64,000 nt of DNA from Microvenator marinus (GTDB lineage Bacteria > Myxococcota_A > Bradymonadia > Bradymonadales > Bradymonadaceae): the NCBI RefSeq assembly GCF_007993755.1, contig NZ_CP042467.1:2256001-2320000 (forward strand), given 5' to 3'. The notes beneath the pieces were generated by a model, which was given only the letters and a program-made list of their open reading frames with translations, was not told the origin of the DNA and ran no database searches. How positions within the stretch are numbered: the first letter of the stretch is position 1; the number at the start of each line of letters is the position of its first letter. Of the stretch, positions 4,559 to 57,027 are shown one piece after another. Made by a program: the position numbers and the translations under genes.

Positions 4559-5386
4559 TTGGCGTTAAAGCGACTCGCCGTCATCATTCTGGTTTCGCTC
4601 TTTTGTGTTGCCTTTTCGCACCAGGACACTCCGCCGTGGGAGAGTGCTCCTGAGCCAAGTGCGCTTGAACTTGACCATCCGTGGTACGAAAACGGCAGGT
4701 CCATCAAGCGTGGTGCGATCGAAGTATCAAAAGCCCTGGGGCCTCAAAACAAGTCTGAGCTCATCCTCAAAGGCGGAGACGCCCTGATCGGACTGGCCTA
4801 CAGGGCCACCGAAGCCATCGAGGACTACGAGGCTAAGCGTGTGCCAACCGTCCAGCTGGTGCGGATTTCCAGCCGGTTCGGCATGCGAGTCCATCCTGTT
4901 CTAAAGCGGCGGAAGTTCCACAACGGTGTTGATTTTGCGGCGCCGCGCGGCACACCCGTGAGGGCGGTTGCAGACGGAGTGGTCACCTATGCGGGATGGT
5001 CTGGTGGCGCGGGGAAGATGGTCAAGATCAAGCACGACGGTTTTGAGTCGGGCTACGCACATCTGGCTTCCATAACGCGCGATGTGCGGGTAGGCGAAAC
5101 GATCAAGGCCGGTGAAACCATTGGTGGTGTGGGAGCAACGGGCCTCGCCACTGGAAACCATCTGCACTTCACGATTCGCAAGAACGGACGTTTTGTTGAC
5201 CCCATGAAAGATGGGCTCGAACGAATCGAACCAATGGTCGAGCTCGAAATCATTGCTGGACTTGAAAGGAACGTGGGGAAACTCTTCACCGCGCTTGAGA
5301 ACTCGGCCGCGAGCTTTTTTGATGGCGAGGAGTTGAACCTCAGTGAGCTTGAGCTCGACGAGTTCTGGGACGACAGCTTCCTCTAG
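4559..5386 (+). CDS. Secreted M23 (LytM-type) metallopeptidase
   Basis: Predicted zinc endopeptidase acting on peptidoglycan cross-bridges in the periplasm or outside the cell. The M23 core spans about residues 100-220. The first metal motif HxxxD is present as H121-D125 (HNGVDFAAPRGTPV), and the HxH motif as H201/H203 (GNHLHF), so the enzyme is likely active. An uncleaved or cleaved signal sequence covers the first ~20 residues. The reading frame must start at TTG 4559 because no ATG lies before the catalytic domain; the ribosome-binding site is weak. The C-terminal ~50 residues are acidic (many Glu/Asp). The gene ends 4 bases from the convergent outer-membrane protein gene. Confidence 0.87.
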   Translation: MALKRLAVIILVSLFCVAFSHQDTPPWESAPEPSALELDHPWYENGRSIKRGAIEVSKALGPQNKSELILKGGDALIGLAYRATEAIEDYEAKRVPTVQLVRISSRFGMRVHPVLKRRKFHNGVDFAAPRGTPVRAVADGVVTYAGWSGGAGKMVKIKHDGFESGYAHLASITRDVRVGETIKAGETIGGVGATGLATGNHLHFTIRKNGRFVDPMKDGLERIEPMVELEIIAGLERNVGKLFTALENSAASFFDGEELNLSELELDEFWDDSFL

Positions 5387-5390
5387 GCGC

Positions 5391-6590
5391 TCAGTACCAA
5401 AAGCCAACACCGAGACCGAAGTTTGCGTACTTCGGCGCAAGATCGACGGCGAAGTTTAGACGCCAATCCCAGATCACAGAAACCCTTAGGTCACCACCAA
5501 AAGTGCCGTGAAGGCGCCCCGAGTGCGACGCAACTCGCGAGGGTTCCCAATACGTACCGGCGCGGGCCACAAGCCTGTTCGCCAGAAACTCGGACTCAAT
5601 CCCGAGCCTTGGTGTAAGGCTCACCTCTCGTCCAGAAGCTTCAGGCTGATTCTCAATGAATGAAACTGGGGAAATGGAGTCCTCGGTTGGAAGCTCCATG
5701 CTCAGGTCTGCACTCACGAGTACGTAACGCCTGCCGTCTGTGCGTGCTTTGCCGGGCGCGTCGCCTCGAGTCGACTCCGGGTTGTAGATGCGCTCCCAAC
5801 CCATCCAGGACGCGCCTACGGCGATCCTAGAAGGTACGTTCATGGCGGCTACAGCCCCGTACTCGGAGCCTTCTGGCGGCCTCAACGTCTCTTCAGCTGC
5901 AATTACGGGCGAGGTGTATGCCGCGCCTATCCGATAGGGCTTGTGGGTGGGCGCCCATTGAGCCCCTGCCGAGTACCCGGTGCCTTCGAGTCGCAGAATA
6001 TCTTCCAGATTAGAGTTCTGCAGGGATACCGTAGCGGGCGTAGCCCCGACTCCAAGACTTAGATCTATGGCGCGAATTGTGTAACCAATCCCAACTACGG
6101 CGTAAGTTTGTACGAGTCGGAGTTCCTCTCCACTCTGACTCCTGAACACGAACTCCTTGTTGTAGATGTGGAAACCCATTCCGAGGTCGCCGAAATGCAC
6201 TCCCAAGCCCGCGCCGAGATACGCGGACGCATCCACGGCACCAGGATTGAGCCCAACCTCCGGCGATGATTCTCGGTTTGGAATCCCGTCGAGCCAGTAG
6301 AGGCTAAAGTCCCAATCAAAGAACTCGTCTTTGGCGTACCGATGTCGAACGGCAAACGAGGCTGGATTCAAGAGGTAGGAATCGGCGCCTTCAGCGATTG
6401 AGACGAATGCGCCTCCTAGGCCAATTAGCCTATTGGAGGCGATGACGGGGCCGTTCGTAAACTCGAGGGATTGGTTTGTTTGCGCGTACACGCTCGAAGG
6501 GGCTGCAAACATCGCGAGGCATGTCGCGACCTGTGTGACTCCACGATCAGAAATCCGGCCCACAAACATCTGACGAAGCCAATGACGCAC
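5391..6590 (-). CDS. Predicted outer-membrane beta-barrel protein
   Basis: A 399-residue protein with a signal peptide ending near SSVYA-QT, then alternating amphipathic strands and a terminal aromatic residue (GVGFWY), as in outer-membrane barrels. The opening after cleavage (NRLIGLGGAFVSIAEGADS, NPASFA) is like that of OmpP1/FadL- or PorV-type proteins, in which a Gly-rich stretch precedes the barrel. Specific ligand unknown. The start is GTG at 6590, with AGGAG six bases upstream. That start lies inside the upstream lipoprotein gene, giving a 44-base overlap and implying translational coupling with the lysozyme-like lipoprotein. Confidence 0.72.
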   Translation of the reverse strand: MRHWLRQMFVGRISDRGVTQVATCLAMFAAPSSVYAQTNQSLEFTNGPVIASNRLIGLGGAFVSIAEGADSYLLNPASFAVRHRYAKDEFFDWDFSLYWLDGIPNRESSPEVGLNPGAVDASAYLGAGLGVHFGDLGMGFHIYNKEFVFRSQSGEELRLVQTYAVVGIGYTIRAIDLSLGVGATPATVSLQNSNLEDILRLEGTGYSAGAQWAPTHKPYRIGAAYTSPVIAAEETLRPPEGSEYGAVAAMNVPSRIAVGASWMGWERIYNPESTRGDAPGKARTDGRRYVLVSADLSMELPTEDSISPVSFIENQPEASGREVSLTPRLGIESEFLANRLVARAGTYWEPSRVASHSGRLHGTFGGDLRVSVIWDWRLNFAVDLAPKYANFGLGVGFWY

Positions 6591-48559: not shown

Positions 48560-49198
48560 ATGAAGATTATCAAGATTCAAGAAGTCGCCGAAAACCCTGA
48601 ACACATCAAAGCCCTGGCTAAGACGCTCGCCAATGGCGGACTCGTTTGTATGCCATGCCGAGGAACGTACAGAATACTCGCCGACCTGCTCAATGAAGAC
48701 GCAGTGATCAACTTAATGCAGTCCAAGAGACGCACATCGAAGGCTCCTTCACTCGTCTTTGTGCCGAGCAAAGATCACCTTTCGAAAATCACGGATGAGG
48801 TGCCAAGCGTGGCCAATCAGCTCGCCAAGGATCATTGGCCTGGGCCGCTCACCATTCTTTTCGAACCCAGCTCAGAAATCCCGCGCTCGGTAGTCAAACA
48901 GCTGACCAAAGCGAACGGTCATATCGGCGTGCGGATCCCGGAAGACGAACTCATGGTTAGACTCCTTCAGGAGTTTGGTGGACCGGTGCTTGTCTCGAGC
49001 GCCAACAAGGAAAAGAAGGCAGGTGCGAGTTCACCTGCTCAGATCCGAAAGAATTTTGTCAGCAGAGTCGACCATTTTGTGGACGCCGGAGACCTCTCGG
49101 GCGATGGTTCCTCGACCATCGTTGAGATTAAAGACGGAAAGGCCCACGTAACCCGCGAGGGCAATATCTCATCGGAGCAACTCAAGAAGTATTGTTGA
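48560..49198 (+). CDS. Sua5/YciO/YrdC-family protein
   Basis: A 212-residue member of the YrdC fold family, which makes threonylcarbamoyl-AMP for the t6A modification of tRNAs reading ANN codons. Recognisable parts are CMPCRGTYRILADLLNE (the KRxxx-type binding edge), KRRTSKAPSLVFV, and WPGPLTILFEPS with VRIPEDELM and VLVSSANKE. The YGLxxx-type N-terminal motif is replaced by RGTYRI, so this may be the YciO subgroup rather than true TsaC. The downstream DUF697-type gene begins within about three bases of its stop. Confidence 0.8.
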   Translation: MKIIKIQEVAENPEHIKALAKTLANGGLVCMPCRGTYRILADLLNEDAVINLMQSKRRTSKAPSLVFVPSKDHLSKITDEVPSVANQLAKDHWPGPLTILFEPSSEIPRSVVKQLTKANGHIGVRIPEDELMVRLLQEFGGPVLVSSANKEKKAGASSPAQIRKNFVSRVDHFVDAGDLSGDGSSTIVEIKDGKAHVTREGNISSEQLKKYC

Positions 49199-49200
49199 GT

Positions 49201-50259
49201 ATGGCCAACGAAACACCTGACGAAAAACCTGACCTAAAGACCGACCTGATATCTCAGGCTGAACAACTCCTAACCGGGCTGAGCGCCGCAGACCGAGACA
49301 AACTCAAAGGCGATTTTCAACTCATCAAGGAGATTGCCCAAGCCGTGTCTGATGCTCACCCTCCGAGCATTCTACTCATTGGCGAGCCCGGGGCTCCTCT
49401 AGGCGAAATCCTGAGCCAGCTGGCCCCACTCTCAGATCCCCCTGAACAATGGGATATCCACCAAGAGATCGGGCGAGGACGCTGGCAGAATTGGAAATTG
49501 GAGCTCGGCGAGTTTCGCGTTTGTGATGCACGAAGCGAATCGCCGCATGAGTCGCTCCCAAAGGCCCTGAACTTCGAGCTCCCCGAGCTGATTCTGAGTG
49601 TCGTTTCTTCAAATACTCGCGCCCCGGGCCGAGTTGAGGAACTACAGATGGTCGTCGAGGGCGTGGAAGATCTGGCGAACAAGCTCCCATCGGGTGCGCT
49701 CGTCATTTGGCGGCCAAGTGCTGGGCGCGAGGTGGGAGATTTTGTGACCTTACAAGCGCTTAAACAGGCGTTTGTGGACCAGGGCATGGCCCGAGACGCC
49801 TTCCCGGTTGTTCAGCTCGCTCGCCCCGGAAAGCTCCTTTCAAGTGCGCTCGCGCAGCTCAATGAATCCCAGCGGCTCGGACTCGCCAGGATCTGCGGCG
49901 ACCCGACCTCCAAGAAGGAAATCGCACAAGCCATCGTGCGCACAGCCACCTCGGTCAATGCGTCGATTGCCGTCGTCCCGATTCCTGTGGCTAGCTCACT
50001 TCCCATCACAACCGTTCAAGTCCTGATGATTTCCTCTATCGCGTGGTTAAGCGGCAGAGAGGTCAACGCCAAGACACTCGGAGAATTCGGTGGCGCACTC
50101 GGTCTCAATATCGGTGCTGCCCTCGCGCTGCGTGAGTTCGCGCGCGCTTTGATAAACTGGATTCCCGTAGCCGGTTCGGTAGTCTCTGCCGCGATCGCCG
50201 CAGCCGCCACGCAGACTCTGGGTAAAGCCGCTATCCGATACTATATCGACAAAGAATAG
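49201..50259 (+). CDS. DUF697 protein with a degenerate GTPase-like N-terminus
   Basis: A 352-residue protein. The C-terminal ~115 residues match DUF697, a helical membrane-associated domain normally fused to Era/YcjF-type GTPases (VPIPVASSLPITTVQVLMI, GREVNAKTLGEFGGALG). The N-terminal part lines up with a small GTPase: beta strand SILLIGEPGAPLGEI where a GxxxxGK(S/T) P-loop would be, but the Gly-Lys-Ser is missing, as are DxxG and NKxD. It is therefore a pseudo-GTPase or a scaffold. Start: ATG 49201, though TTG 49192 or 49195 is possible because the ribosome-binding site is weak. Confidence 0.75.
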   Translation: MANETPDEKPDLKTDLISQAEQLLTGLSAADRDKLKGDFQLIKEIAQAVSDAHPPSILLIGEPGAPLGEILSQLAPLSDPPEQWDIHQEIGRGRWQNWKLELGEFRVCDARSESPHESLPKALNFELPELILSVVSSNTRAPGRVEELQMVVEGVEDLANKLPSGALVIWRPSAGREVGDFVTLQALKQAFVDQGMARDAFPVVQLARPGKLLSSALAQLNESQRLGLARICGDPTSKKEIAQAIVRTATSVNASIAVVPIPVASSLPITTVQVLMISSIAWLSGREVNAKTLGEFGGALGLNIGAALALREFARALINWIPVAGSVVSAAIAAAATQTLGKAAIRYYIDKE

Positions 50260-50271
50260 TCTGTAGGACTG

Positions 50272-52032
50272 CTACGTGAACAACGCGAGTCGCATGGAGT
50301 CGCCGTGAATCGACCGTGTGAGCAGCTCGATCGCCTGGCCCTGCAGCTTGTTGAGAGCCAACGTACGATCACAGAGCCAGGTTGCGCCCGAACCCGGCGA
50401 GGTCCGCACTGCACGAACGCGAATCGGAGGCCCGGTGATTGTAGAGTTTAGGGCCGAGAGGGGTACGTAGAACGGCGTCTGAACGCCCTCCTCAGTGTTC
50501 TGCACGGCAACGACAAGAGTCAACGTAGGAAACGGTGACGGCTCGTCTTGAGAAGGCTTCAAGAATGCATCGATCACCATCGGAACTGTGAGCACCGACT
50601 GAATCCCGGTCACCAAGATGAAATACTGCTCAGGCCTCGGCCGATTGCTCAAACCGAAAAAATGCCTCTCCCAAACCTCGCGGAAATTGGGGAAGAATCC
50701 GTCATACGAATCACGGATTCTCTGCAACATATCGGTCTGAGCCGCCTCATCCAACCCATCAAATTGTTCGCAAAGCCGCGAAATCACAGCGGCCGAAGCC
50801 CTCGTGATCGCATCTTCGGCGATCGGCAGCATCTCGGTGTCGATCGGCGCAAGGTGGACCCCAAGATTCGCAAGGTCCTCCGAGTAATCCAGAGTTGCGC
50901 CTTCGAGGTCCAAACTACCCAAAACAGGATAGCCATCGTCCTGAGGGATGGGCAATGTCCTTGAGAGCCCCACAAAAAGGTCGCGCAACGCGCCTTGCTC
51001 ACGGACCGTCCAACAAACCAGAGGCAGTTCCCAAGGTAAGGTCGTCGGCTGATCGAGCCCGAACGCGTCCCGAGCGACCTCCAGAACCGAAACGCTCGGA
51101 GCCGGAAGGTCATGTAACATCATGCCAAACGCCCGCCGTTCATTCTGAGCGAGTTCGGACCATGCTGTCTTGATATCTTGAAACGAAGGCCAGGTGCTGA
51201 GCTCAGTCGATAACCACTTCTCTTGAACCTTGAGTGCGGCGAACATCGCATCCAGGAGCGCTGCCGCCTCACTGACGTTCGCACCACGAATCGCCCTCCC
51301 CGCGTGCTTAAAGTACGAGTGCGGAGTCAGCCCAAGGCTGTCCCAAAGAAGCTCTACAATCAATTCCGAGGTGGACTCCCATTTGGTTTGACCAAGTGAA
51401 GTCCGAAGCGCCGTGGACACACCCTTAAACGCCTCAATATCCTGAATATCCTGCCACTCAGGCCATGCAGCGCTGCCTTTTAGAGCCCCTCGGAGTTCGT
51501 CGGATATCTCCACATCAAACGAAGTCTCTTGTCCCAAAAGGGCGGCAATCGACTCCAGCCTCGACGTAAACACACCAATCTTTACCGACACATACGAGGG
51601 CACATCTACCGCTCGAACAGGCGCGTTTTCGGCCTTCTTCGCGATTTTCGTGGTTAAACTCTTGAGGCTCTGCTCGTCCCGTGTCTTGAGCGCCAGCGTC
51701 ATCGAAAGGCTTGAAAGCCCAAGAACTTGGGCGATGGGACGGCCCAACGTGGCCACGATCTCCGCATCGCTAATCCTCCCGATTAACTCCTCATTGAGTT
51801 TGAGCACCTGTGGTTCATCTTCGCTCAGGCTCAGCGCTATGCGCCTTCCGCCTTCAAAGATGGTGGGCTCGTACTCGATGCGCTGCATGAGTTGATAGAG
51901 CGTATCGAGCCGACTTGTCTGCTCCTCGGGCTCAACACCCGCTTCAGCCAAGAGATGCGCAAATAGATCGAGATGCGTATCAAAAAGCTCACGAACAATG
52001 CGTCCAATTTTATCTTGAAGTGTCTCAGACAC
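50272..52032 (-). CDS. Large uncharacterised protein, last gene of the phaR/KamB-like block
   Basis: A 586-residue soluble protein of unknown family. It is mainly alpha/beta with many Trp/Phe/Leu residues in the second half (FPNFREVWERHFFGLSNRP, PTLTLVVAVQNTEEGVQTP). No signal peptide, transmembrane helix, Walker A, or catalytic motif was recognised. It was compared with the MutS-like KamC partner of KamB, but no P-loop or MutS motif is present. The start is GTG 52032 with AAGGAG five bases upstream; GTG 52038 is too close. The gap to the KamB-like gene is 9 bases. Confidence 0.65.
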   Translation of the reverse strand: MSETLQDKIGRIVRELFDTHLDLFAHLLAEAGVEPEEQTSRLDTLYQLMQRIEYEPTIFEGGRRIALSLSEDEPQVLKLNEELIGRISDAEIVATLGRPIAQVLGLSSLSMTLALKTRDEQSLKSLTTKIAKKAENAPVRAVDVPSYVSVKIGVFTSRLESIAALLGQETSFDVEISDELRGALKGSAAWPEWQDIQDIEAFKGVSTALRTSLGQTKWESTSELIVELLWDSLGLTPHSYFKHAGRAIRGANVSEAAALLDAMFAALKVQEKWLSTELSTWPSFQDIKTAWSELAQNERRAFGMMLHDLPAPSVSVLEVARDAFGLDQPTTLPWELPLVCWTVREQGALRDLFVGLSRTLPIPQDDGYPVLGSLDLEGATLDYSEDLANLGVHLAPIDTEMLPIAEDAITRASAAVISRLCEQFDGLDEAAQTDMLQRIRDSYDGFFPNFREVWERHFFGLSNRPRPEQYFILVTGIQSVLTVPMVIDAFLKPSQDEPSPFPTLTLVVAVQNTEEGVQTPFYVPLSALNSTITGPPIRVRAVRTSPGSGATWLCDRTLALNKLQGQAIELLTRSIHGDSMRLALFT

Positions 52033-52041
52033 TGTCACTCC

Positions 52042-53085
52042 TTATCGTGCACGTCCTCGGGAGTGTAAGCCATGATTCGGATTGAATATAGTTATTTCCG
52101 GCCATAAAGCGTCAAAGCTTGCCAGCAAGGCTTCCTCCGAAATCTTCCAACCCGTTATCGACGTTGGATTTACGCTGATTCCAAGCACCTTTTGAGAGGC
52201 CAACACTCGGACCTGCCAGTGGCGCCTAAACTTCTGAAACCGAGATGCGTCCGCGTGAATCGAGGTGCCATCTGAGACCAAAAGCGTTCCTTTCGAGCGC
52301 GCAGCCATGAGCCCATCGAGCACCTTGTCGGACACAAGCCCCGGAATTGCCACAGCATCTTCGCCTGCGCTCAGACTTCCCTTGAGCTCCTTGAGAGCAA
52401 GCAACGCAGAACGCGCCTGAAGCGGCCTCGGTGGCTCCGTTTCGCCGCCAACCATCACCCGCTCCTCGCGCATACTCGCCCGCAACAACTCGCGTTCCCA
52501 TTCGGTCTCGACCTCAGGCAGCCTCAAACGCTCCACAAGCTCGCGGGTCTTCGCGATCACCTGGTCTGGTCTAGGACTGATAATGGCCCCCGTTGAGACG
52601 ATCACGGAATCTACTAAGTCCGCGTGTGCTGCGGCCACGCGCCCATAGGCGCCATCGATAAGAACCCGTGTGACGCCATGCGCCTCAAACACGCTCATAA
52701 TCTCATGAAGGTCCGCCCGCTGCCGAACACCGGCGAGCATCAAATCACCCGCCTCAAGCACGCGCGCCAAAACGGGTCGACCCAAAGGAGTCTCAAACGA
52801 GAGCGGCTCCACAAACTCAAATCGTGCGTCACTCTGGTCAAACGCGGACCTGACACTCACGCACCACATCCCTTCCACCACCCTGACCGGAGGTTTTGGC
52901 GTCCCGATGAGATAGTCACTGGTCTCCCCATCGATACCGATCGAGCAAACGCCAAGCTCAAACTGGTCGCGAAACTCTGCCGCATACAGCTCGATCATGA
53001 AGTTTAGCGTTGTGGTTTTCCCACAATTCTTGGCCACTCCAATCACCGCACTTCTTTGGCCAGAAAAGAGATTCAGTAGCCCCAC
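52042..53085 (-). CDS. P-loop ATPase resembling lysine 5,6-aminomutase reactivase KamB
   Basis: A 347-residue P-loop NTPase. Walker A is GVAKNCGKTTTLNF (G16-T24). The following order matches KamB of lysine-fermenting bacteria as I remember it: IGIDGETSDYLIGTPKPPV, TPLGRPVLARVLEAGDLML, VLIDGAYGRVAAAHADL, VIVSTGAIISPRPDQVIAKT. KamB together with KamC removes inactive cobalamin from lysine 5,6-aminomutase. kal and kce in this window belong to the same pathway, which strengthens the call. GTG start at 53085, with AGAGGA seven bases upstream. It overlaps the HEAT-like gene by 13 bases. Another nucleotide-binding role cannot be excluded. Confidence 0.6.
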   Translation of the reverse strand: MGLLNLFSGQRSAVIGVAKNCGKTTTLNFMIELYAAEFRDQFELGVCSIGIDGETSDYLIGTPKPPVRVVEGMWCVSVRSAFDQSDARFEFVEPLSFETPLGRPVLARVLEAGDLMLAGVRQRADLHEIMSVFEAHGVTRVLIDGAYGRVAAAHADLVDSVIVSTGAIISPRPDQVIAKTRELVERLRLPEVETEWERELLRASMREERVMVGGETEPPRPLQARSALLALKELKGSLSAGEDAVAIPGLVSDKVLDGLMAARSKGTLLVSDGTSIHADASRFQKFRRHWQVRVLASQKVLGISVNPTSITGWKISEEALLASFDALWPEITIFNPNHGLHSRGRAR

Positions 53086-53888
53086 GGTGCTGTCCTCTGT
53101 TCTCGAAGCTCCACCAGCAGACTCGCAAACTCTTGGATCATCGCATGCAGGTCGGTGGCAAATCGCAGCTTACGCAAGACGTCCACGTGCAAGGTTGGCA
53201 TCATCTTCAAGGCAAACCCCGTTGGAATGTATGGGTTCTGCACCAGGGCCTCGCGCACACGCATCTCGCGGAACCACTGATCAGACTTCATGACTTCGCG
53301 CAGAAGCTCTGATTTGGTCGGGCGTCGCGCTGCGATGACGAGCACGTCTTGAAGTCGAATATGGGGATTGGCCAGAACCTTCTCGATGACGAGAGGACTC
53401 GACTCGTAAATCAGACGCTCCAAAAACCTCCGATCGGGCCCCGCCGCAAGCTGACGCCTCTCCCCAAGAGTCACTTCTCGGCCAATTGGCATGCGCACTT
53501 CCGGCAGTCTGGCGTTCTCACCCATCGCTCGGTGTGCTGGCAAATCTCTCAAAAGAAAAAGGACCGCTTTGCGGTCGCTCTCGTGGGCTGCCAGGTAATA
53601 TTCTTGGAGCGTTTCATACTCGTCATGCTCTCGCAGACCCACCAACCATGCGGCGCACGTCAACATGGCGTCCATCTCGGCCTCTCGGCCCCAGAGTGCG
53701 CCTCTGACGAGTTGATCCATGAACCAAACGGCAACGTCGGCCTCCAGGCTTCGTATGCCTTCGTCGAGCTTAGCTCGGCGCATTGCGAGCTCGGGAAGAC
53801 TCGTAATCGCTCTCACGACCCTACGGTAGTGCTCAGCAACCGGGTCCGGCGCGTCGACTTCCCCCACAAGGTCTTGATCGACACTCAT
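53073..53888 (-). CDS. Helical-repeat protein of Myxococcota type, unknown function
   Basis: A 271-residue soluble protein, mostly alpha-helical. The C-terminal half has short repeating segments, VIEKVLANPHIRLQDVLVIA and VREALVQNPYIPTGFALKMM, of the leucine-rich-variant/HEAT-like kind seen in many Myxococcota proteins of unknown role. No catalytic motif. TTGAGG precedes the ATG. It overlaps the start of the KamB-like ATPase gene by 13 bases, so the two are likely to be made together and may interact. Confidence 0.68.
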   Translation of the reverse strand: MSVDQDLVGEVDAPDPVAEHYRRVVRAITSLPELAMRRAKLDEGIRSLEADVAVWFMDQLVRGALWGREAEMDAMLTCAAWLVGLREHDEYETLQEYYLAAHESDRKAVLFLLRDLPAHRAMGENARLPEVRMPIGREVTLGERRQLAAGPDRRFLERLIYESSPLVIEKVLANPHIRLQDVLVIAARRPTKSELLREVMKSDQWFREMRVREALVQNPYIPTGFALKMMPTLHVDVLRKLRFATDLHAMIQEFASLLVELREQRTAPWGY

Positions 53889-53894
53889 GCAACC

Positions 53895-55409
53895 TCAAGG
53901 CGATACGACCTCAACTTTAACGCCAAATGCACCCCCGTCGAGCACCGTTTGTGGAACGTCAAAGATGATGCTTTGAACTGGCTGAACCCCATTGGAGCCC
54001 ACGGGCTTTGCCGAGTCCGGGCTAAGCCCGCGCAGGTCCTCGATAGACTTCGCCCCAGAGATATCTGCGAAGGGAATCTGACGCCCTGCGGATACCGTGG
54101 ATTCTCTCAGCACTTTTTGGGTCTCGTCGGTAATCATCACGCGAATCTTGGCCTCGCTGACTTCCGAGTCCGAGCTGTTGAACGCCACACCGCTCACTAC
54201 CAAGATCTGGTCGCGGCGACCGATCGGGACGAGGCGGGCAAAGACATCCTGCACTTCAATCGCAGGAACTTCAGGCACTGGAGGCGCTACCGGCTCTGGA
54301 ATCCACTCCGGGCGAGCTTCAAACGTCTTTCCCTGGAAGCCCACCTCAAGCATGTGGTCGATCCGAGCGAAATCCAGAACGCCGCCAGATTTAAACGCCA
54401 CAAAACCGAGCACACAGGCCACTGCAATCAGCAGAATGAAGAGGAAGTTCGAAAACTTCTGGAAGCCACCACCACCCACGCGGTGCGGCTCAAAGTCGAG
54501 GTCATCCACCACCGCTGCCTTCTTGGGCGGACCAGAACTCTGCAAGTCCTGTGGACGATTCGGCGCTGCCGCCGGAGCAACCCTTTGCGGAGCCACAGCT
54601 TGAGGCGGGGCCTGTGCCGCTGCAGGTGGAGCCACAACCCTACCCGAATTCGGGTCAAACGAAGGAGAGTCGTGCCCGAAGTTCGGGTCGACCAAGTCTT
54701 CGGCGGACCCGAACATAGCATTCGGATCGACGTGTTGCTCAGCGGGTTCAGGCACCTCAGGGAGAGTCGCCATTCTCGGCGCCGCCTTCGGAACCGGAGC
54801 TGACTCGATATCAAATTTCGGTTTCGGTAGCGGTGCTACAGGACCTCCCATGGGAGTTCCGTGATGAGCTCTCGAAGGCAACTGCTTCGGAATCGCACTC
54901 TCATCATCAATACTCGAAGCTTGCTGAAATGCGCCCGCGAACGGATCAGGGTCTTCCTCGGCCACCGAAACAACGGACGGATCCTCGCCGTCGAACAAGT
55001 CGATGCTCGGTTCTTCGAGCGCGGGAGGTGGCGTCATCGCGGACGCGAACGGGAAAGGATTGTAGTCGGGCGCAGCACTCTTGGACTTGCGCTCAGATAC
55101 AGGCAATCCAATCATGGTACTTCGAGGGTCAAACCCATCCTCCTCCGCTGGCATCGGCTTGCCCTTCACTCCGGGAAAAACGTCGTCGAGGCTATCTGCA
55201 ACACTTTCCTCAAACAAATCCGAGAGGTCTTGAGTTGGAGGATCCGCGACGCCTTCATTCTTGTAGAAAACCTCAGCTTCTCCTTCCCCTGTCAGGCGGA
55301 CCCGAAAGGTATGTGAGCATTTTGAGCAACGAACCTTCGACCCTTTTGCAGACATCCGCTCAACCGGAAGCTGAAACGTCGTACTACATTTTGGACACTC
55401 GATGACCAT
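53895..55409 (-). CDS. MJ0042-type zinc-ribbon membrane protein
   Basis: A 504-residue protein. The N-terminus has the MJ0042 zinc-ribbon (Cys5, Cys8, Cys28, Cys31; IECPKCSTTFQLP, KVRCSKCSHTFRV). A long Pro/Ala/Asp-rich low-complexity region follows (about 60-310). One transmembrane helix is at about 325-347, and the C-terminal ~140 residues match DUF3426 in style (SGVAFNSSDSEVSEAKIRV, ESTVSAGRQIPFADI). Such proteins are widespread in Myxococcota and may link signalling to the envelope. AAGGA is six bases upstream. Co-transcribed with phaR, 17 bases apart. Confidence 0.85.
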   Translation of the reverse strand: MVIECPKCSTTFQLPVERMSAKGSKVRCSKCSHTFRVRLTGEGEAEVFYKNEGVADPPTQDLSDLFEESVADSLDDVFPGVKGKPMPAEEDGFDPRSTMIGLPVSERKSKSAAPDYNPFPFASAMTPPPALEEPSIDLFDGEDPSVVSVAEEDPDPFAGAFQQASSIDDESAIPKQLPSRAHHGTPMGGPVAPLPKPKFDIESAPVPKAAPRMATLPEVPEPAEQHVDPNAMFGSAEDLVDPNFGHDSPSFDPNSGRVVAPPAAAQAPPQAVAPQRVAPAAAPNRPQDLQSSGPPKKAAVVDDLDFEPHRVGGGGFQKFSNFLFILLIAVACVLGFVAFKSGGVLDFARIDHMLEVGFQGKTFEARPEWIPEPVAPPVPEVPAIEVQDVFARLVPIGRRDQILVVSGVAFNSSDSEVSEAKIRVMITDETQKVLRESTVSAGRQIPFADISGAKSIEDLRGLSPDSAKPVGSNGVQPVQSIIFDVPQTVLDGGAFGVKVEVVSP

Positions 55410-55426
55410 ACATCGTCCTTGGTTTT

Positions 55427-56005
55427 TCAGGGCAGGTCTTTGAATGGATCATTCGCTGTCACATGGCGTACCGGCTGCCCATCGCGCAGATTACCCTCGA
55501 GCCGTTGCACCATCTTTTCCAAATGCTTTACGCGCTGCTCAAGTTCCTGAACCTCGCGTCGCATCTGAGGAATATGTGTCAGTTGATCCACTGCATCTTT
55601 GAATCGCTCGTCCATCCGATTCTGCATCTCGTCTAGGGAGCGCTGGGTGGACTCGATAAAATCTTTGACCGCTTTGCCACTCTCCTCGAGCGCATCGGTC
55701 TTCCGTTTCACTTCGTCTTTAAACTGGCTTACCGGATTCTGAATCTTCTGGAAGATATCCTCGCCGGACTGCTGAATGATGTATCGTAATGATGCCAGCG
55801 GAAGCAGGCGTTTATGCGCCTTTTCCTGCTCAAAGATAATCTGGGCCAGCGTGACGTTCGTCAGATCCTCTTTCGTCGAGTTATCGATAATCCGAATATC
55901 CTCGCCGTCACGCACCATGTCCCTAATCTCCTCAAGGGTGATGTAGGTACTGCGTTCGGTGTCGTAGAGTTTACGATTCGAATATCGTTTGATGATTTTT
56001 GTCAT
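55427..56005 (-). CDS. phaR: Polyhydroxyalkanoate synthesis regulator PhaR
   Basis: A 192-residue regulator. The first ~60 residues match the PHB/PHA accumulation regulator DNA-binding domain (IIKRYSNRKLYDTERSTYIT, EEIRDMVRDGEDIRIIDNST), followed by a second conserved block (LAQIIFEQEKAHKRLLPLAS) and a long coiled-coil tail. In other bacteria PhaR represses phasin and PHA genes and also binds PHA granules. No phaC, phaA or phaB gene is in the window. The coiled-coil tail resembles that of phasin-like proteins. It is 15 bases downstream of the beta-barrel gene. Confidence 0.93.
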   Translation of the reverse strand: MTKIIKRYSNRKLYDTERSTYITLEEIRDMVRDGEDIRIIDNSTKEDLTNVTLAQIIFEQEKAHKRLLPLASLRYIIQQSGEDIFQKIQNPVSQFKDEVKRKTDALEESGKAVKDFIESTQRSLDEMQNRMDERFKDAVDQLTHIPQMRREVQELEQRVKHLEKMVQRLEGNLRDGQPVRHVTANDPFKDLP

Positions 56006-56020
56006 ACCGCCTCGGGTGGT

Positions 56021-56908
56021 TCAGAAATCCACACCGACAGCGAGCGACGCCTGAGAGACGTCGGCAAAAACACCCTCAAGCACGAAGTTGAGAATCCACA
56101 CGTTCAAGCGCGCACCCACAAAGAATCGGTTCGCCTGCGTGTTATGCTGCTCAAAGACAAACTCTGGACTGAAGGTCGAAGAACCCATGCCAGACGGATT
56201 GTCGAGGTCGAACTGAGGAGGCCGCGGATCTTGCGGATAAGCATTCAAAAGGCGGCTCGACCCGATGGTGAAGAGCATCTGGTAGCCAAGATATGGCGTC
56301 AGCGTCATCACACCGCTAATCCCAAACGCCTTCGACATCGACATATCACCGCCGGCGTTGATCAAGTTCAAATCCGGCGAGCCCATCACGGTGTTCACAC
56401 TGCCGCGTACGGCGAGATCCGGGAAGTAGTAGAACCCTTCGTTAAGCGCCCATTTCAAGTCCGCACCAAGCGCGAACATCTCGGAGTTGTAGAGGTAGCC
56501 AAAATTACCCGCCAACTCGAACGAGAAGGGCAAGCCCTTTCGAACCTGAAGGAACGTGGTGAACATGGTGCCTGGGTCTTGGTCTTCAAGACCGACCTGC
56601 CAGTGTTCTTCCTCAGTAGGGATGAAATTCAGAGACGTGATGATATTGACCGCGAATCCGGCCTCACCAAGCGTTTCTGCGGGCGCAGCAATGCGCGGGG
56701 CCATCAAAAGCCCCATATCACCCACCATATTTTCAAAGAGCACCCTGTTCGGCTGCACGATGCCACAGGCGTTCGGACAGTTGCCGAACTCTTGCGGGTC
56801 AAACGTCGCAAATCGAGAGAGTACAAGATCGTTATCGAGCGCGGATGCAGGGGTCGCTGCTAATACGGCAACCAGACACACCATCACGTTGAGACTATGT
56901 CGAAGCAT
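56021..56908 (-). CDS. Predicted outer-membrane protein
   Basis: A 295-residue protein with a signal peptide ending at PASALDN, two Cys near the N-terminus (GNCPNACG), and alternating beta strands ending in a terminal Phe (SLAVGVDF), as in an outer-membrane barrel. Function and ligand unknown. ATG 56908 is chosen, eight bases after GGAGG; an upstream GTG at 56926 lies before that ribosome-binding site. First gene of the run that continues with phaR, the zinc-ribbon protein and the KamB-like ATPase. Confidence 0.7.
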   Translation of the reverse strand: MLRHSLNVMVCLVAVLAATPASALDNDLVLSRFATFDPQEFGNCPNACGIVQPNRVLFENMVGDMGLLMAPRIAAPAETLGEAGFAVNIITSLNFIPTEEEHWQVGLEDQDPGTMFTTFLQVRKGLPFSFELAGNFGYLYNSEMFALGADLKWALNEGFYYFPDLAVRGSVNTVMGSPDLNLINAGGDMSMSKAFGISGVMTLTPYLGYQMLFTIGSSRLLNAYPQDPRPPQFDLDNPSGMGSSTFSPEFVFEQHNTQANRFFVGARLNVWILNFVLEGVFADVSQASLAVGVDF

Positions 56909-57027
56909 CGAACAATCCTCCAGCACAAAGAGTGCATCGGGTGAGGTCGCAAGGACGGAACACCCTCATCTAGCACCGCACGCAAAAAATCGTCAACACT
57001 CAGAGGGTGAGCGCCGCGAATTTAAGC

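Follow-up and report, generated by a model that had tools for sequence, protein, structure and literature searches.

Six genes are tightly packed on the minus strand of the window analysed here (a 64,000-nucleotide stretch of the Microvenator marinus genome, which is a single contig of 5.85 Mb), raising the question of whether they form one system. An earlier note on this DNA had proposed a joint, lineage-specific role linking carbon storage (through PhaR) to the envelope and an ATPase. ORF calling confirmed all six minus-strand genes with their ends, from 56908 down to 50272, and the packing is real: in the 5′ to 3′ direction, the intergenic spacings are 15, 17 and 6 bases, followed by a 13-base overlap between the HEAT and kamB genes and a final spacing of 3 bases. 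Our preferred reading, which we consider probable, is that the block marks the junction of two modules that are conserved independently of each other and share no pathway. Module 1 comprises the OMP, PhaR-like, zinc-ribbon and HEAT-like genes and module 2 comprises kamB and A588; in module 2, KamB would serve the upkeep of lysine 5,6-aminomutase (KamDE), with A588 and a globin of relatives as accessories. On this reading, a 'six-gene mystery system' is resolved into two testable pieces. The features are as follows.

56994–57016, minus strand: terminator-like hairpin (9-pair stem, then a T-rich tail; consensus match only)
56021–56908, minus strand: OMP301, 295 amino acids from ATG, with a signal peptide; first gene of module 1
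55427–56005, minus strand: PhaR192, 192 amino acids, PhaR-like paralog
53895–55409, minus strand: Zn504, 504 amino acids, with an MJ0042-type zinc ribbon
53073–53888, minus strand: HEAT271, 271 amino acids, HEAT-like repeat protein; last gene of module 1
52042–53085, minus strand: KamB, 347 amino acids, lysine 5,6-aminomutase reactivase subunit; first gene of module 2
50272–52038, minus strand: A588, 588 amino acids, unnamed family; second gene of module 2

The hairpin falls within the 119 bases that separate the OMP gene from a UbiA-type gene upstream, a position consistent with a transcription unit that begins at the OMP gene; terminator-like matches in the region did not exceed the number in shuffled sequences. 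No minus-strand promoter-like site was found from the OMP start to the A588 end, and the two modules probably share one transcript in the window genome. Downstream, a convergent GTPase-like ORF (49192–50259, plus strand) ends 12 bases from A588.

Gene order in relatives

All six genes are joined in order in only the window genome, G009 and G005, and five of the six are joined in G006, in which the OMP gene is missing from the block. The earlier note had staked its proposal on gene order being kept in at least one relative, and to this extent it held. Elsewhere in the family (family f1 of the Bradymonadales), the break falls between HEAT and kamB: in most of the family module 1 has no kamB beside it, module 2 likewise recurs without module 1, and in G001 and G013, each a single contig, the two halves are separated by 1.1 and 2.8 Mb. 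The OMP–PhaR–zinc ribbon–HEAT order was present in nine genomes with all four genes on one fetched contig, and G003 and G008 have the OMP–zinc ribbon–HEAT order without PhaR. Around kamB, A588 recurs in relatives and the other window flanking genes tested do not. Given that both halves recur as neighbours in many relatives and that the other tested flanks do not, their conservation appears to be more than chance.

Alternatively, the joined genes of the window genome, G009, G005 and G006 might work as a single system, which other genera have split with the parts still cooperating in trans. The joined order has been kept despite deep divergence (A588 is 41% identical between the window genome and G009, and about 28–30% identical to the G005 and G006 proteins), and the 13-base HEAT/kamB overlap is the same in the window genome and G009. 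With KamD/KamB/KamE from another family as the root, one FastTree tree places G005 and G006 at the base of the family, suggesting that the joined state could be ancestral; in another FastTree tree, built from module 1 proteins, the joined genera form a weakly supported group, and the state may equally be derived. The two trees disagree on the ancestry of the joined block, and a single event suffices under either. Retention of all six genes across three deeply diverged genera could reflect a functional tie in those lineages. However, HEAT and PhaR relatives are found in Myxococcota families that have no KamB, including the sister family f2, and in other families KamB has KamD/KamE and not module 1 as its neighbours; we regard a single system as quite improbable. 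The joint role envisaged in the earlier note is not borne out, given that the halves are apart in most of the family, that the ATPase belongs with lysine 5,6-aminomutase and that PhaR192 is not the copy at the PHA locus; the description 'lineage-specific' applies to A588 and not to the rest of the block.

The four genes of module 1

Under our two-module reading, module 1 would be an old envelope or regulatory cluster of the Myxococcota. OMP301 (which has an alternative GTG start 18 bases upstream of the ATG) is a predicted secreted or outer-membrane protein with no significant match in Pfam or NCBIfam, the Pfam match to DUF6588 being sub-threshold (E = 0.069). Its orthologs adjoin the PhaR, zinc-ribbon and HEAT genes across family f1 and lie tail-to-tail with PhaR in family f2. 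The zinc-ribbon identity of Zn504 suggested from the sequence is upheld by both Pfam (PF13717, 50.5 bits) and NCBIfam (TIGR02098, 38.8 bits). Zn504 shares its N-terminal zinc ribbon with MJ0042-type zinc-ribbon membrane proteins, contains a single hydrophobic segment and weakly resembles FxLYD in its C-terminal region; in relatives, its orthologs are flanked by PhaR (or OMP) on one side and by HEAT on the other. Only its first 47 residues resemble Myxococcus GltJ (21 bits versus a 450-bit cut-off), the remainder being without similarity. HEAT271 is confidently predicted by AlphaFold to be an all-helical HEAT-like repeat protein (mean pLDDT, 91.6; helices only), so that the predicted fold agrees with the identity first proposed, and a search of this fold against the PDB gave no significant match. 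HEAT271 relatives were found in 247 of the 284 Myxococcota genomes sampled, and a PhaR-like gene is adjacent to the HEAT271 relative, mostly in divergent orientation, at 5 of 11 other Myxococcota loci examined, indicating that the core of module 1 is independent of KamB. Two other Myxococcota have a TatA-type translocase gene next to the PhaR-like/HEAT pair (L288, 8696–9133; L294, 8977–9354).

The identity of PhaR192 was confirmed in part. The protein carries the N-terminal DNA-binding domain of PhaR (PHB_acc_N, PF07879; 98.3 bits in Pfam) and a phasin-like coiled coil, but differs from PhaR in lacking the PHB_acc domain, in scoring below the PhaR equivalog cut-off (88.1 versus 109.45 bits; TIGR01848) and in its location away from the pha locus. 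A second PhaR of the window genome (L143, 6186–9127; contig C1, about 2.15 Mb), which also scores below this cut-off (102.2 versus 109.45 bits), is divergent from a phasin–PhaC–PhaB run that is likely to be the true PHA locus of this genome. At 7 of 9 loci, the one in the window genome included, this second paralog is accompanied by phasin and PhaC, and neither PhaC nor phasin was found within about 1.5 kb of PhaR192-type genes at any of 21 loci.

The idea that PhaR192 regulates PHA storage, and that the block couples such storage to the use of amino acids, draws on the PHB_acc_N domain and on the accumulation of PHA granules by Bradymonadales (PMC7460792). The presence of another PhaR at the phaC/phasin locus of the same genome leaves this link to carbon storage without support, and the sub-cut-off score of PhaR192 and the separation of its group from phasin and PhaC also speak against it. 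Moreover, G002, G003, G004 and G008 yielded no PhaR192 ortholog, and G003 and G008 keep the other three genes of module 1. We therefore consider a role in PHA regulation highly improbable. The presence of two old PhaR paralogs, only one of them with phaC, calls for caution in equating PhaR-like genes of Myxococcota with PHA regulators.

KamB and lysine 5,6-aminomutase

Lysine 5,6-aminomutase (KamDE) is a radical enzyme dependent on coenzyme B12 and PLP that acts in lysine breakdown through 3,5-diaminohexanoate, and its reactivase is known from anaerobic lysine fermenters. The KamB-like ATPase recognized in the earlier note was confirmed by a score of 274.1 bits against the curated cut-off of 210 (NF052386) and by its P-loop (GVAKNCGKTT), in which AKNxGKTT is invariant in 16 members. 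In score, P-loop, length and tight co-occurrence with KamD across the phylum, the protein resembles KamB of known lysine 5,6-aminomutase operons (kamA-kamB-kamC-kamD-kamE in Clostridia). KamB was present in 58, KamD in 68 and both in 55 of 284 Myxococcota genomes (Fisher P = 3 × 10−42, ignoring relatedness), and the distances of KamB correlate with those of KamD more than the background would give (partial r = 0.66). Within the Bradymonadales, KamB was found in 19 of the 21 genomes of family f1 and in none of the five genomes of sister family f2, in which KamD, KamE and the dehydrogenase are also absent and nothing scored above the KamC cut-off.

Most of the KamB loci fetched from outside the Bradymonadales (families f3, f16 and f35) have kamB followed by (kamC)-kamD-kamE, and such an arrangement also occurs in Clostridia and in a Lokiarchaeote. 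An operon of kamB with kamC, kamD or kamE, which is typical of the family and not required, is not present in the window genome: rather than these neighbours, kamB has A588 next to it (and, in relatives, a globin gene as well). The genome encodes KamD (876 bits; C1:4443052), KamE (401 bits; C1:1876975), a candidate for the MutS-like KamC (289.9 bits versus a cut-off of 300, with a far lower MutS2 score of 127) and 3,5-diaminohexanoate dehydrogenase at separate places, indicating that the kam operon is dispersed. These data extend the lysine 5,6-aminomutase reactivase to predatory Myxococcota, here with its gene set dispersed.

By its family name, KamB would be a P-loop ATPase that restores inactivated KamDE, and the likely role of module 2 is the maintenance of this B12 radical enzyme by KamB. 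'Reactivase' is the curated name of the KamB family, and we found no paper in the open literature that tests this function for KamB or KamC. Against our reading stand the occurrence of KamD without KamB in 13 genomes, the KamC candidate just under its cut-off, and, in family f12 of the Myxococcota, a P-loop protein resembling KamB whose gene adjoins that for SelA (selenocysteine synthase) and not kamD (L306, 8938–11396; L308, 8712–11235).

As a separate observation, an M42-type peptidase gene lies 5′ of kamB in seven relatives that have no module 1 at that place (L023, L027, L030 and L031).

A588 and its globin neighbour

A588 occurs in 19 of 284 Myxococcota genomes, all from family f1 and exactly the same 19 that have KamB in this family. 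The f1 genomes without both genes (G017 and G018) are incomplete assemblies, and the co-occurrence is therefore one family-level fact rather than 19 independent ones. The A588 gene lies directly 3′ of kamB in 12 genomes; in a further three, all of genus g9 (Lujinxingia), the gene for an RCC1-repeat protein intervenes between the two (L026, 10486–12321). The genes are apart in G007, G014 and G019, and the G004 locus is cut by contig ends.

At the level of sequence, A588 is a previously undescribed protein family: searches against Pfam, NCBIfam and the PDB gave no significant relative, and its sequence matched PDB entries only at chance level and over one helix. Invariant residues are found among the 15 full-length members, with the core motif LPWxxPxxxWxxRExxALxDLxxG, and the structure is predicted with confidence (pLDDT, 86.6). 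Of the proteins compared, A588 has evolved fastest (mean identity of 32% versus 43% for KamB and 74% for KamD). The N-terminal part weakly resembles the fold of zincin metallopeptidases and the C-terminal part that of PD-(D/E)XK nucleases, both at Z scores of 4–6, a range expected without relationship. An active peptidase was rejected given the absence of HExxH in all 15 members, and an active PD-(D/E)XK nuclease given the lack of a conserved (D/E)xK in the C-terminal part of the 15. A diverged KamC, considered for its similar length and place after kamB, was also rejected (hhalign probability of 0.1; a separate KamC candidate is present in the genome).

In 16 of the 17 genomes with enough contig, the exception being the window genome, a Bac_globin (PF01152) gene lies directly 3′ of A588. 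In our reading of the alignment, a histidine is invariant in these globins, roughly where a heme-binding residue would be expected. Examples are as follows.

L022, 12266–12718: globin after A588
L209, 911–1324: globin after A588
L210, 3350–3742: globin after A588
G007: globin after A588, convergent

A588 keeps the globin in G007, G014 and G019, where kamB is elsewhere, suggesting that the A588–globin tie is tighter than that between kamB and A588. The two genes may thus be a separate oxygen or nitric-oxide response pair that is unrelated to KamB and often merely beside it. Besides the persistence of the globin, the lack of any specific co-variation between A588 and KamB distances (mirror-tree; partial r = −0.19, 10 genomes) agrees with such a pair; the direct or near adjacency of kamB and A588 in the 15 genomes above, with differing flanks, argues against it, as does the joint absence from G017 and G018, which counts little given the incomplete assemblies. 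We regard a separate pair as possible, if somewhat doubtful.

With KamB upkeep of KamDE as the preferred role of module 2, A588 and the globin of relatives would most likely be accessories of KamDE reactivation or protection in these bacteria, and it is plausible that they help KamB in its work. They offer a concrete candidate for keeping a B12 radical enzyme working in an oxygen-exposed cell, and we know of no A588-type component from anaerobic lysine fermenters. A more far-reaching proposal, that they represent a new B12 radical aminomutase accessory in air-exposed predatory bacteria, working with the KamB ATPase to protect lysine 5,6-aminomutase or to restore it when oxygen or nitric oxide has damaged it, is speculative and in our view unlikely.

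Outside the family, a related globin gene was observed beside kamE at the kamB-kamC-kamD-kamE locus of G050 (L299, about 5070–5415), an arrangement that is suggestive only.
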